A program made the translations under genes and the position numbers. This document shows positions 19,352 through 63,926 of a stretch of 64,000 nt of DNA, one piece after another. How positions within the stretch are numbered: the first letter of the stretch is position 1; each line of letters opens with the position of its first letter. Source of the stretch: an uncultured Phycisphaerales bacterium. GTDB taxonomy: Bacteria > Planctomycetota > Phycisphaerae > Phycisphaerales > UBA1924. The stretch is from assembly GCA_937995595.1 (NCBI GenBank), contig CALKJW010000011.1, forward strand, positions 62,001 through 126,000, in the 5' to 3' direction. The notes under the pieces were generated by a model, which worked only from the letters and a program-made list of their open reading frames with translations, made no database searches and was not told where the DNA came from.

Positions 19352-19390
19352 GATGCCGGATCGTACATGCGGAAGCCGCCGGAGGGAGTT

Positions 19391-19420
19391 GCAGAGGGAA
19401 CCCGCAGGGGTTCCCTCTGC
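19391..19420. repeat. Perfect 13-bp inverted repeat with 4-nt loop
   Basis: GCAGAGGGAACCC, loop GCAG, GGGTTCCCTCTGC. It sits in the 157-bp divergent gap between the zinc-ribbon gene and the GNAT gene. No T-tract on either strand, so not a standard terminator; could be an operator or a mobile palindrome. Confidence 0.7.
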
Positions 19421-19508
19421 ATCGGCATTGACCTTGGCGCCGGCCGACAGGTCAGGCCCCGGGGGGCCATTTGCTCCGGACGACCAAACCTGCTTTACTT
19501 CGGCCCGC

Positions 19509-35106: not shown

Positions 35107-35112
35107 TACCAT
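35107..35112 (+). promoter_or_regulatory. -10-like box 5 nt before rlmN
   Basis: TACCAT overlaps the possible TTG at 35112, so the GTG at 35118 is the better start. Confidence 0.5.
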
Positions 35113-35117
35113 TGCGC

Positions 35118-36413
35118 GTGCGTCACCCAGAGTCCCACATCTTCGAGTGCACGCCCGACTCGCTCGCCGAGTGGTGCGAGCAGCGGCGGATGCCCGCGTT
35201 CCGCGGCAGGCAGTTGCTCGAGTGGGTGTACGCCAAGGGCGTGGTCGATCCGGAGGCGATGACGAACCTCTCGAAACGCGACCGCGAGGTGATCGCCGCG
35301 GAGATGACGTTCCTGTCGGGCGACACGGTGGCCGATCGCAAGGCGAGCGACGGGACGCGGAAGTTGTTGATCGAGTGGTGGGATGGTGGTAGGCCCCCTC
35401 TGTCGGCTTTGCCGACATCTCCCCCGTCGGCCCCCCCGGCCAAGGAGGTGGGGCTTCGGGTGCTTGGTTCGGGCGGCGACAGTTCGCGGCAGACCGAGTG
35501 CGTGATGATCCCGGCGGGGGAGGTCGACGAGCGCGACGGCGCCACCGACCGCGGCGTCGGGAGCACCTACCGCCGGCGGACGGCGTGCATCTCGTCGCAG
35601 GTGGGCTGCCCGGTGGGGTGCAGGTTCTGTGCCTCGGGCATCGGCGGGCTCGACGGCAACCTGTCGGCGGGCCGGATCGTCGAGCAGGTGTGGCGATTGG
35701 GGCAACTGGTTTCCTCGCCACGCCGTGGCGAGAATGCTCGTCGAGCGCCGTCACGGAGTGACGGCTCCACCCAGAGCGGCTCCACCCCGAACCGCATCAC
35801 CAACGTCGTGTTCATGGGCATGGGCGAGCCGCTGGCGAACTTCGCAAACGTGACGCGCGCGGTGCGAACCATCGCCTCGCCTTGGGGCTTGGGCATCTCG
35901 GCCCGGAAGATCACGATCTCGACCGTGGGGCTGCCCAGGGCGATCGAGCGACTGGCCGAGGAACTCGACCTGCCCGTGACGCTCGCGCTGTCGCTGCACG
36001 CGCCCAACGACGAGGTGCGCCGGCAACTCATCCCCTGGGCCGAGTACACGACGATCAACGATCTGCTCGCGGCGTGCAGCAGGTGGTTCGAGAAGACCGG
36101 CCGCGAGATCACGCTGGAGTACATCCTGCTCCGCGGCGTGAACGACGGGCCGCGGGACGCGCGGCAACTGGCGGACCTGGCGCGCACGCTGCGGGCCAAC
36201 GTGAACCTGATCCGCTACAACGAGGTGAAGGGGATCGAGTTCGGTCGGCCGCGCGACGAGGACGTGCTGGAGTTTCAGCGGATCCTGCGTGATGCGCGGG
36301 TGAACACGCACATCCGGGCGTCGCGCGGGCGGGACATCGCCGCGGCGTGCGGGCAGTTGCGGCACGAGAAGCGCGAGAACAGCGGAGCGGCGAATCTGCA
36401 GAGCAGCAAATGA
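35118..36413 (+). CDS. rlmN: 23S rRNA (adenine-C2)-methyltransferase RlmN with two inserts
   Basis: Radical SAM enzyme methylating A2503 of 23S rRNA and A37 of some tRNAs. The 431-residue product has the 4Fe-4S motif CPVGCRFC (Cys164, 168, 171), GMGEPLANF, the LALSLHAPNDE segment, and the C-terminal AACGQLRH with the methyl-carrying cysteine. Two segments do not belong to the fold: residues about 92-116 (PPLSALPTSPPSAPP) and about 199-217 (SPRRGENARRAPSRSDG). Both are encoded by palindromic DNA resembling intergenic repeats. They sit at predicted loops and keep the frame, so the enzyme is probably still active. GTG start chosen from the TACCAT position. Confidence 0.92.
   Translation: MRHPESHIFECTPDSLAEWCEQRRMPAFRGRQLLEWVYAKGVVDPEAMTNLSKRDREVIAAEMTFLSGDTVADRKASDGTRKLLIEWWDGGRPPLSALPTSPPSAPPAKEVGLRVLGSGGDSSRQTECVMIPAGEVDERDGATDRGVGSTYRRRTACISSQVGCPVGCRFCASGIGGLDGNLSAGRIVEQVWRLGQLVSSPRRGENARRAPSRSDGSTQSGSTPNRITNVVFMGMGEPLANFANVTRAVRTIASPWGLGISARKITISTVGLPRAIERLAEELDLPVTLALSLHAPNDEVRRQLIPWAEYTTINDLLAACSRWFEKTGREITLEYILLRGVNDGPRDARQLADLARTLRANVNLIRYNEVKGIEFGRPRDEDVLEFQRILRDARVNTHIRASRGRDIAAACGQLRHEKRENSGAANLQSSK
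35394..35430. repeat. REP-like palindrome, copy 1 (inside rlmN)
   Basis: CCCCCTC, then a 7-bp stem TGTCGGC-TTT-GCCGACA, then TCTCCCC and GTCGG. Differs at 3 of 37 positions from copy 2 at 36452; two of the three changes lie in the hairpin loop. Translated in frame as PPLSALPTSPPSA. Confidence 0.75.
35714..35764. repeat. Paired palindromes inside rlmN
   Basis: Two perfect hairpins: CTCGCCAC-GCC-GTGGCGAG (35714-35732) and CCGTCAC-GGA-GTGACGG (35748-35764). The first resembles the palindrome after prfA (11570-11588). Translated in frame into a basic Ser/Arg-rich loop. Confidence 0.65.
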
Positions 36414-36451
36414 AGACGCGGGTCGGGACTTGTGCGAGCAGGAACTGAATG

Positions 36452-36497
36452 CCCCCTCTGTCGGCCTGGCCGACATCTCCCCTGTCGGGGACAGGGG
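36452..36497. repeat. REP-like palindrome, copy 2 (rlmN to hydratase gap)
   Basis: Same element as 35394-35430 with stem TGTCGGC-CTG-GCCGACA, plus a second 8-bp hairpin CCCCTGTC-GGG-GACAGGGG. It ends 22 bp before the next start codon, just ahead of its Shine-Dalgarno site. Confidence 0.75.
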
Positions 36498-36518
36498 ATG
36501 GGGGCGCGAGGAGCAGTC

Positions 36519-37283
36519 ATGTCGCTGGCGCTACTGAACATCAACGGTGCGGTTGCCACGCTGTCGATGAACCGCGCCGAATCGCGCAACGCGTTGTCGA
36601 TCGACCTGCTCGCGTCGCTCCACCACCGGATGAACGAACTGGAGGCGGCGGTGCGCACCGGCGGGCCGCAGGCGCCGCGGGCGTGCGTCGTCACCGGCGA
36701 GGGCAAGGCGTTCTGCGCGGGGATGGACCTCAAGCAGGTGCTGGGCGACCCCGATGCGCCGCTCAGACTGCTGTCGAGCCTGGCGGACCTGTGCCTGCGC
36801 ATCCGCGCCCTGCCGATCCCGACCATCGCCGCGGTGAACGGCGCGGCGATCGGCGGCGGGTGCGGACTCTCGACCGTCGCGGACTTCTCGATCACGCACG
36901 CGGACTCGAAGATGGGTTTCCCGGAGGTCGATCTGGGCGTGTGCCCGGCGGTCGTGGCGCCGTGGCTGGTACGGAAGATCGGCGCGGGCCGCGCCCGCGC
37001 GGTGCTGCTCCGCGGCGGCGTGATGAGCGGGAGCGAAGCGCACGCGCTGGGCATCGTCAACGAGTGCGTGCCCACGCGCGACGACCTGCTGCCCGCCGCC
37101 GGCGCGCTGGCCGAGCGGCTCTGCGCCGGCGGGCCGGTCGCGCTCGCCGCGACCAAGGGCCTGCTCAACGAGTTGGACGGCTCGCTCGACGCGGCGCTTT
37201 CTCGGCGCGGCGCGGAACTCTCGGCGCGGGTGCTGGCGACGCCCGAGGCGCAGGCCACGCTGCGGGCCAGACTCGGAACGTAA
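36519..37283 (+). CDS. Enoyl-CoA hydratase/isomerase family protein
   Basis: Crotonase-fold enzyme of 254 residues, acting on an acyl-CoA. It has the N-terminal AVATLSMNRAESRNALS strand, the oxyanion-hole motif CAGMDLKQVL, the second oxyanion Gly in IPTIAAVNGAAIGGGCGL, and the catalytic-loop region FPEVDLGVCPAVV. A Glu sits at the usual hydratase position in the last motif; the exact substrate cannot be inferred. The frame is open from 36432, but AGGAG at 36508-36512 precedes the ATG at 36519. The upstream leader includes REP copy 2. Confidence 0.88.
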   Translation: MSLALLNINGAVATLSMNRAESRNALSIDLLASLHHRMNELEAAVRTGGPQAPRACVVTGEGKAFCAGMDLKQVLGDPDAPLRLLSSLADLCLRIRALPIPTIAAVNGAAIGGGCGLSTVADFSITHADSKMGFPEVDLGVCPAVVAPWLVRKIGAGRARAVLLRGGVMSGSEAHALGIVNECVPTRDDLLPAAGALAERLCAGGPVALAATKGLLNELDGSLDAALSRRGAELSARVLATPEAQATLRARLGT

Positions 37284-61304: not shown

Positions 61305-61408
61305 CCACCGACCGCGGCCTTGCGCGGTCGGTGGTCGCGCACGTGCAGCACCGCACGAGAGTCCTACTTCAGTGCACCGACCGGTCCTTCGGACTCGGTC
61401 GGTGGCAC
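61305..61408. repeat. Two related palindromes between top6B and catalase
   Basis: First: perfect 12-bp stem CCACCGACCGCG / CGCGGTCGGTGG with loop GCCTTG (61305-61334). Second: a 16-bp stem with two bulges and loop TTCG (61372-61408). Both share the core CACCGACCG and its complement. They lie between convergent genes. No T-tract follows, so a paired REP-type element or a bidirectional stabiliser is more likely than a standard terminator. Confidence 0.7.
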
Positions 61409-63036: not shown

Positions 63037-63926
63037 AACTGCACCAACTGCGGTACTTCGTCGCCGCGGCCGAGACGCTGAGCGTGACCCGCGCCGCGGA
63101 ACGCTGCCGTGTGGCCCAGCCCTCGCTGAGCCAGCAGATCGCCCGGCTGGAGCGGTCGATCGGCGCGAGGTTGTTCGACCGGCTGGGGCGCGGCATCGCG
63201 CTGACCGACGCGGGGCGCGCGCTCCTGCCGCGGGCCAGACGCATCCTCGCCGAGGTGCGCGACGCCGAGGCCAACGTGCAGCGCGAGGCGGAAGAGGGCT
63301 CGGGCGGCGCGGCGGCGGTGGCGGTGGGCGCGATCCCGACGGTCGCGCCGTACGTCCTGCCCGCGGCGATCAAGGCGCTCCGCGCCGATCACCCCGAGTG
63401 CGAGCCGACGATCCGCGAGGCGTTGACGCGGGACCTCGTCGAACTGGTGCTGGAGAACCAACTCGACTGCGCGATCACGAGCACGCCGATCGACGACGAC
63501 CGGCTCAACGTGCAGGTGCTGGCGCACGAGGAACTGGTCGTGGCGATGCCCGCCTCGCACGCGCTGGCTGGGCGCGCGCAGATCGGCTGGGCCGATCTGC
63601 GCACCGAGCCGGTGGTCACGCTCGACGAGATGCACTGTCTGGGCAGGCAGATTCAGGGGTTCTGCTCCGTGCGTTCCTCCGCGTCGCGGGTCGTGTGCCG
63701 CACCACGCAACTGGCGACGATCTTCGAACTGGTCGCGCTGGGGCTGGGCGTGTCGATCGTGCCGGAGATGGCCGCGCGTCACCACGGCACGCGGCGGTGG
63801 CGCTACGCGCACCTGAGCCAGCACAAGCCGATCAGGCAGATCGCGATGGTGTGGCGGGGCGACCGGCAGCGACCGCGGCTGTCGCTCGCGCTCGCGGAGA
63901 TCGTGGCGCGCGGCCTGGCGAAGTGA
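63033..63926 (+). CDS. oxyR: OxyR-type LysR regulator
   Basis: Peroxide-responsive transcription factor of 297 residues. N-terminal winged helix-turn-helix (LHQLRYFVAAAETLSVTRAAERC), then a periplasmic-binding-type effector domain. The redox motif HCLGRQIQGFC has Cys202 and Cys211, spaced like Cys199/Cys208 of Escherichia OxyR, so a disulfide switch is expected. Divergent from catalase, its probable target. An ATAG-N7-CTAT palindrome lies on its own -10 box and start codon. The GTG at 63027 is an alternative start; the ATG at 63033 fits the box spacing. Confidence 0.92.
   Translation: MELHQLRYFVAAAETLSVTRAAERCRVAQPSLSQQIARLERSIGARLFDRLGRGIALTDAGRALLPRARRILAEVRDAEANVQREAEEGSGGAAAVAVGAIPTVAPYVLPAAIKALRADHPECEPTIREALTRDLVELVLENQLDCAITSTPIDDDRLNVQVLAHEELVVAMPASHALAGRAQIGWADLRTEPVVTLDEMHCLGRQIQGFCSVRSSASRVVCRTTQLATIFELVALGLGVSIVPEMAARHHGTRRWRYAHLSQHKPIRQIAMVWRGDRQRPRLSLALAEIVARGLAK

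Follow-up and report, generated by a model that had tools for sequence, protein, structure and literature searches.

The window, the whole stretch of 64,000 nucleotides that was analyzed from an uncultured Phycisphaerales bacterium, holds two copies of a short palindromic element, here termed family A, at the rlmN locus. One lies in frame within rlmN, and the other in the spacer that precedes a gene for an enoyl-CoA hydratase; rlmN also bears a second in-frame insert, which belongs to a further palindrome family (family 2). The features are as follows:

35112..36413, + strand: rlmN, 23S rRNA/tRNA adenine-C2 methyltransferase (NCBIfam TIGR00048; Pfam RlmN_N and Radical_SAM), host of copy 1 and of the site-2 insert
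35393..35454, + strand: family A palindromic element copy 1, in frame in rlmN, with GCCCCC...GGGGC ends and a degenerate second hairpin
35401..35417, + strand: hairpin 1 of copy 1, TGTCGGC-TTT-GCCGACA, from its fold and the covariation of the stem across phyla
35711..35790, + strand: second in-frame insert in rlmN (residues about 201-227), two hairpins of family 2 with the CACTCCGTG core
36451..36505, + strand: family A palindromic element copy 2, full-length and intergenic, with an outer stem GCCCCC/GGGGGC and two inner hairpins
36459..36475, + strand: hairpin 1 of copy 2, TGTCGGC-CTG-GCCGACA, from its fold
36478..36498, + strand: hairpin 2 of copy 2 (the added hairpin), TCCCCTGTC-GGG-GACAGGGGA, from its fold
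36519..37283, + strand: enoyl-CoA hydratase/isomerase gene downstream of copy 2 (Pfam ECH_1, 4e-40)

The rlmN product matches the RlmN equivalog model TIGR00048 with 322 bits (cut-off 290), and a recount bears out what the earlier note had read from the letters: the segments 35394-35430 and 36452-36488 are identical at 34 of 37 positions (mismatches at positions 15, 17 and 32), with two of the three changes, those at 15 and 17, falling within the 3-nt hairpin loop; copy 1 is translated as part of the rlmN frame; and copy 2 is intergenic, within the 105-bp spacer between rlmN and the enoyl-CoA hydratase gene, and has an added hairpin. As single-stranded DNA, copy 2 is predicted to fold into a three-way junction that includes this extra hairpin (-20.1 kcal/mol, z -4.5), and its GCCCCC/GGGGGC ends were looked at as a possible MITE-like terminal inverted repeat. 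Copy 1, the ends of which were set by comparison with copy 2, retains hairpin 1 and the outer ends, the second hairpin having decayed, and codes for residues R94-G114 of RlmN (RPPLSALPTSPPSAPPAKEVG).

Our genome-wide statements are based on pattern searches of the source genome (3.1 Mb in 55 contigs), which recovered four copies of family A at ≤3 mismatches, as against none for a reversed control. Besides rlmN and the spacer, these lie in truA and thiC, the hosts being identified as the tRNA pseudouridine synthase TruA and ThiC; the element is in frame in all three genes, and in truA a full copy adjoins a partial one. In RlmN and TruA the element is translated from one and the same strand and in the same frame (giving PPLSALPTSPP and PPLSAAPTSPP, respectively), and in ThiC it is translated from the other strand. 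None of the four copies has a stop codon in any of the six frames, and hence compatibility with the host frame is intrinsic to the sequence. The proposal that a small mobile palindrome can enter coding DNA without breaking the frame thus stands as regards the repetition of the motif and its in-frame position in three genes; its mobility is read from patterns of presence and absence, and we consider family A to be a repeated palindrome that is probably mobile. Judged from the sequences, contamination is unlikely at these sites because the copies sit in genes that align with those of relatives of this genome.

A different picture emerged for the further claim that the element adds a peptide to RlmN. 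Alignment of relatives indicates that KLLIEW and QTECV bound a linker which, in this group, varies greatly in both length and sequence, and a linker is present at the site of copy 1 in every full-length RlmN relative examined. None of the other RlmN sequences examined contains the segment encoded by family A, as the earlier note had expected of an inserted element. The genus-mate has a linker of exactly the same length as that of the window (48 aa, KLLIEW to RQTECV), the DNA of which is unrelated over the element; hence, family A occupies a pre-existing linker and does not simply add a peptide to the protein. In TruA and ThiC too, the element lies in a linker whose length varies among relatives, and an AlphaFold model of RlmN (26 sequences) has pLDDT < 50 at residues 98-120 and 216-223, which form loops outside the core. 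Family A makes up most of an RlmN linker that varies in all relatives, and it is therefore probably neutral filler rather than a new peptide with a function of its own. One could conversely imagine that the peptide PPLSALPTSPP is useful to RlmN and that the element is kept for it, given the frame that RlmN shares with TruA and the intactness of the genes. However, ThiC reads the opposite strand, the linkers of relatives are unrelated and the model is disordered there, and we hold such a role to be highly improbable.

Copy 2 is absent from the syntenic rlmN-ECH spacer of the genus-mate, where another palindrome, resembling those of family 2, lies at its place. For copy 1, with the genus-mate linker being equally long, no clean pre-insertion site was seen; a target-site duplication, of which none was found, could not be defined because no such empty site came to light. 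Other relatives from the order have different low-complexity inserts (e.g., TPHSTLRTPHF and VPGSQFPV) at the same RlmN linker sites, and the RlmN linkers of the order look as if they collect repeats of many kinds.

Family A is rare among the relatives of the source genome. Within the same family it is present in 2 of 163 genomes, namely this genome and the genus-mate, which amounts to one of 74 genera, and of a further 391 genomes sampled from the phylum, one has a single imperfect copy. An exact 23-base scan over 84,980 species recovered, among the matches listed, Mesorhizobium, Rhizobium and their relatives (Rhizobiales), many MAGs of gut Clostridia, and MAGs labelled Actinomycetota, Betaproteobacteria and Margulisbacteria (Margulisiibacteriota). 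In all, about six bacterial phyla have the element in closely similar form, a count that is partly MAG-based, with several of the phyla represented by one MAG each; in 20 motif-bearing genomes its copy number ranges from 1 to 45 at ≤2 mismatches. This distribution, patchy in one genus and abundant elsewhere, suggests that family A arrived in this genome horizontally. Chance, or a local expansion of GC-rich repeats in a variable linker, would instead yield copies without a common origin, and the linkers of this lineage are indeed generally of low complexity and variable in length. However, the core pattern, which occurs twice in the window, was not recovered in any of 100 dinucleotide-preserving shuffles, the other 161 genomes of the family have no copy, and identical fixed bases reappear in other phyla; such an origin is accordingly very improbable.

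On annotated rhizobial plasmids, the matches to family A fall where no gene is listed, and in low-GC Clostridia the element is depleted from long ORFs; an 833-aa clostridial frame spanning two copies, which we considered as a gene, looks like an artefact of the repeats. In an Actinomycetota MAG, family A forms head-to-tail arrays with a spacing of roughly 55-60 bp. A copy in an Arenimonas MAG has the same flanks as a rhizobial contig and probably represents contamination. A plasmid or phage carrier was considered and set aside, GenBank phages giving no match to family A; 46 stretches in IMG/VR contain the exact motif; many of the latter look like proviral calls on isolate genomes and might reflect either host flank or real phage carriage.

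Structurally, family A spans about 50-62 bp and comprises two adjacent hairpins, with fixed CCCCTCTG and CATCTCCCC arms around a variable stem that changes in a compensating fashion (CCCCTCTG-hairpin-CATCTCCCC). In a sample of 158 copies, the two stem pairs left free by the search pattern are Watson-Crick in 157 and 151 copies (the first being CG in 77, GC in 72, AT in 7 and TA in 1), and the invariance of the flanks is overstated in this sample because the pattern itself partly fixed them. The combination of fixed flanks and a covarying stem indicates that the structure itself is the conserved object. It is conceivable that such an object is a functional nucleic-acid element, e.g., a terminator, an mRNA stabilizer or a triplex-forming switch, that is selected in place, also inside genes: the strong covariation and fixed flanks, the very stable fold of copy 2, the matches outside listed genes on rhizobial plasmids and the depletion from long ORFs in low-GC Clostridia would all fit with this. 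However, it matches no Rfam family, no T run follows the hairpins, congeneric species already differ in where it lies, and its copies lie in unrelated genes; hence, we regard selection in place as improbable and prefer a tolerated, probably mobile repeat.

The arms of this putatively mobile repeat display a further symmetry. CCCCTCT and TCTCCCC mirror each other across hairpin 1, and the CCCCTCT that precedes this hairpin has precisely the sequence of a parallel third strand to the TCTCCCC:GGGGAGA duplex that hairpin 2 forms. In a sister class from Clostridia the two arms have changed in concert (CCCCCTT/TTCCCCC, with a mirror match of 7/7), and the mirror match over all arm classes has a mean of 2.74 against 2.23 +/- 0.20 in permutations, a value dominated by two classes; we see these statistics as suggestive. 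A palindrome with no detectable transposase might have crossed at least six phyla intact in sequence, with its arms being kept as an intramolecular triplex that could serve as the substrate of a single-strand enzyme or of replication, a speculative scenario to which we assign a low likelihood.

RAYTs are the known movers of REPs, and the earlier note had suggested looking for a REP-associated transposase (TnpA-REP). If family A were a classical REP moved by the RAYT of this genome, its hairpin would be recognized as single-stranded DNA. This would sit well with the two Y1_Tnp genes that score above the Pfam cut-off in the source genome and with the fixed unpaired bases that flank the hairpin, as such enzymes need. 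However, the clearer of the two Y1 genes (at G000:C8:90468) has GCAGCCC-GGGCTGC hairpins on its flanks rather than family A, no copy of which was found near either of the Y1 genes of this genome. Likewise, of 12 motif-bearing genomes, six gave no Y1_Tnp match, and the other six have 12 Y1 loci between them, all lacking a copy within about 1.5 kb; moreover, family A has neither a GTAG nor a CGTC tag. As no Y1 locus examined bears the motif nearby, no transposase is assignable to family A, and mobilization by a resident RAYT appears unlikely. The Y1 (IS200-like) gene with GCAGCCC-TTC-GGGCTGC hairpins on both sides is in its own right a candidate RAYT with its own REP family.

We propose, with a probability of about 0.72, that family A is a short non-autonomous palindromic repeat of the REP/RPE type, which was horizontally acquired and is tolerated in a spacer and in pre-existing disordered linkers. 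The genome most likely received it from outside and has few copies; the element would land, or survive selection, where the DNA tolerates it, namely the spacer and the disordered linkers of RlmN, TruA and ThiC. Its movement most likely occurs by some single-strand process, with selection against damage leaving copies in spacers and tolerant linkers. Since none of its six frames has a stop, the protein would keep working after an insertion or replacement as long as the length stays divisible by three. Several observations speak against this account: copy 1 has no clean pre-insertion site, neither a target-site duplication nor a transposase was found, just four copies are present, few for an active REP family, and the cross-phylum distribution is partly MAG-based.

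Several known systems parallel family A in part. The RPEs are palindromic repeats that are found in frame in unrelated conserved genes as well as between genes, with no known transposase (PMC2229807, PMC10969869), and their insertions are tolerated, as illustrated by a guanylate kinase that stays active with an RPE (PMC2229807). Family A is alike in being an intergenic palindrome that also lies in frame in several unrelated conserved genes (rlmN, truA and thiC), but, as far as a comparison by description goes, the RPEs are 100-150 bp long, have another sequence and come from Rickettsia, unlike the 50-62 bp, two-hairpin family A from about six phyla. The CGTC REPs are short hairpins found in several phyla, mainly in Alphaproteobacteria, without a dedicated transposase (Di Nocera et al. 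2013, PMC3733652), and none could be assigned to family A either. They are characterized by a CGTC (or TGTC/CCTC) tag, an 8-9 bp stem that opens with AT, and a CCA tail, and their intragenic copies, including those in genes for tRNA pseudouridine synthases and tRNA synthetases, were suggested to be neutral in flexible linkers (PMC3733652). Hairpin 2 of family A is also preceded by GAC and opens with AT in its rhizobial form; however, its context is GACATCTCC, with an NGAC tag in place of CGTC/TGTC/CCTC and a tail other than CCA, and family A has two hairpins and invariant CCCCTCTG and CATCTCCCC arms that are not described in PMC3733652.

The GTAG-tagged REPs and REPINs with a RAYT are non-autonomous palindromes that are possibly moved as single strands (PMC2817692, PMC3116915, PMC8266576). 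Family A is similarly a short imperfect palindrome present in several to many copies (4 here, up to 45 elsewhere), but it lacks GTAG, hairpin 1 being flanked by CCCCTC and TCTCCCC in the aligned copies, and no genome tested has a motif-flanked RAYT. Such REPs are mainly extragenic; for family A the picture is mixed, as three of the four copies here are genic, the rhizobial plasmid matches have no listed gene under them, and in low-GC Clostridia the element is depleted from ORFs. The Brucella repeats Bru-RS1 and Bru-RS2 are cited in PMC2267715 as palindromic repeats of the Rhizobiales, the group richest in family A matches, a likeness of description rather than of compared sequence. A literature search with the motif as a string gave only unrelated papers among the matches listed. 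Intragenic REPs and their suggested neutrality in flexible linkers (PMC3733652) and the in-frame position of RPEs (PMC2229807, PMC10969869) are already published; what is new is the identity of the element, its absence of a GTAG or CGTC tag, its cross-phylum reach and the presence of two families in the linkers of one genome.

The second of these families has a CACTCCGTG-core palindrome with 29 occurrences in the genome, as against 6 for a reversed control; the majority are perfect palindromes, palindromic copies number about two dozen, and they are often preceded by TGGTGG. At its site in RlmN (site 2), several relatives have just a few residues. It is also found in frame between the domains of an MqnC/CofH-like radical SAM protein, valyl-tRNA synthetase (ValRS) and a dihydrolipoamide acyltransferase, and further copies lie near gene starts, where they may or may not be coding. 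Work on in-frame palindromes has chiefly concerned Rickettsia and a small number of REP-rich genomes. The present genome has two such families, unrelated to each other, in frame in linkers of six or more housekeeping proteins, and one of the two recurs in distant phyla. It thereby becomes testable how such elements spread when no transposase is evident, and whether mobile DNA that reshapes essential enzymes lands in disordered linkers. The window also has other long perfect hairpins, at 2743-2771, 19390-19421, 61305-61334 and 63576-63602, with stems of 12-14 bp that are unrelated to both families.
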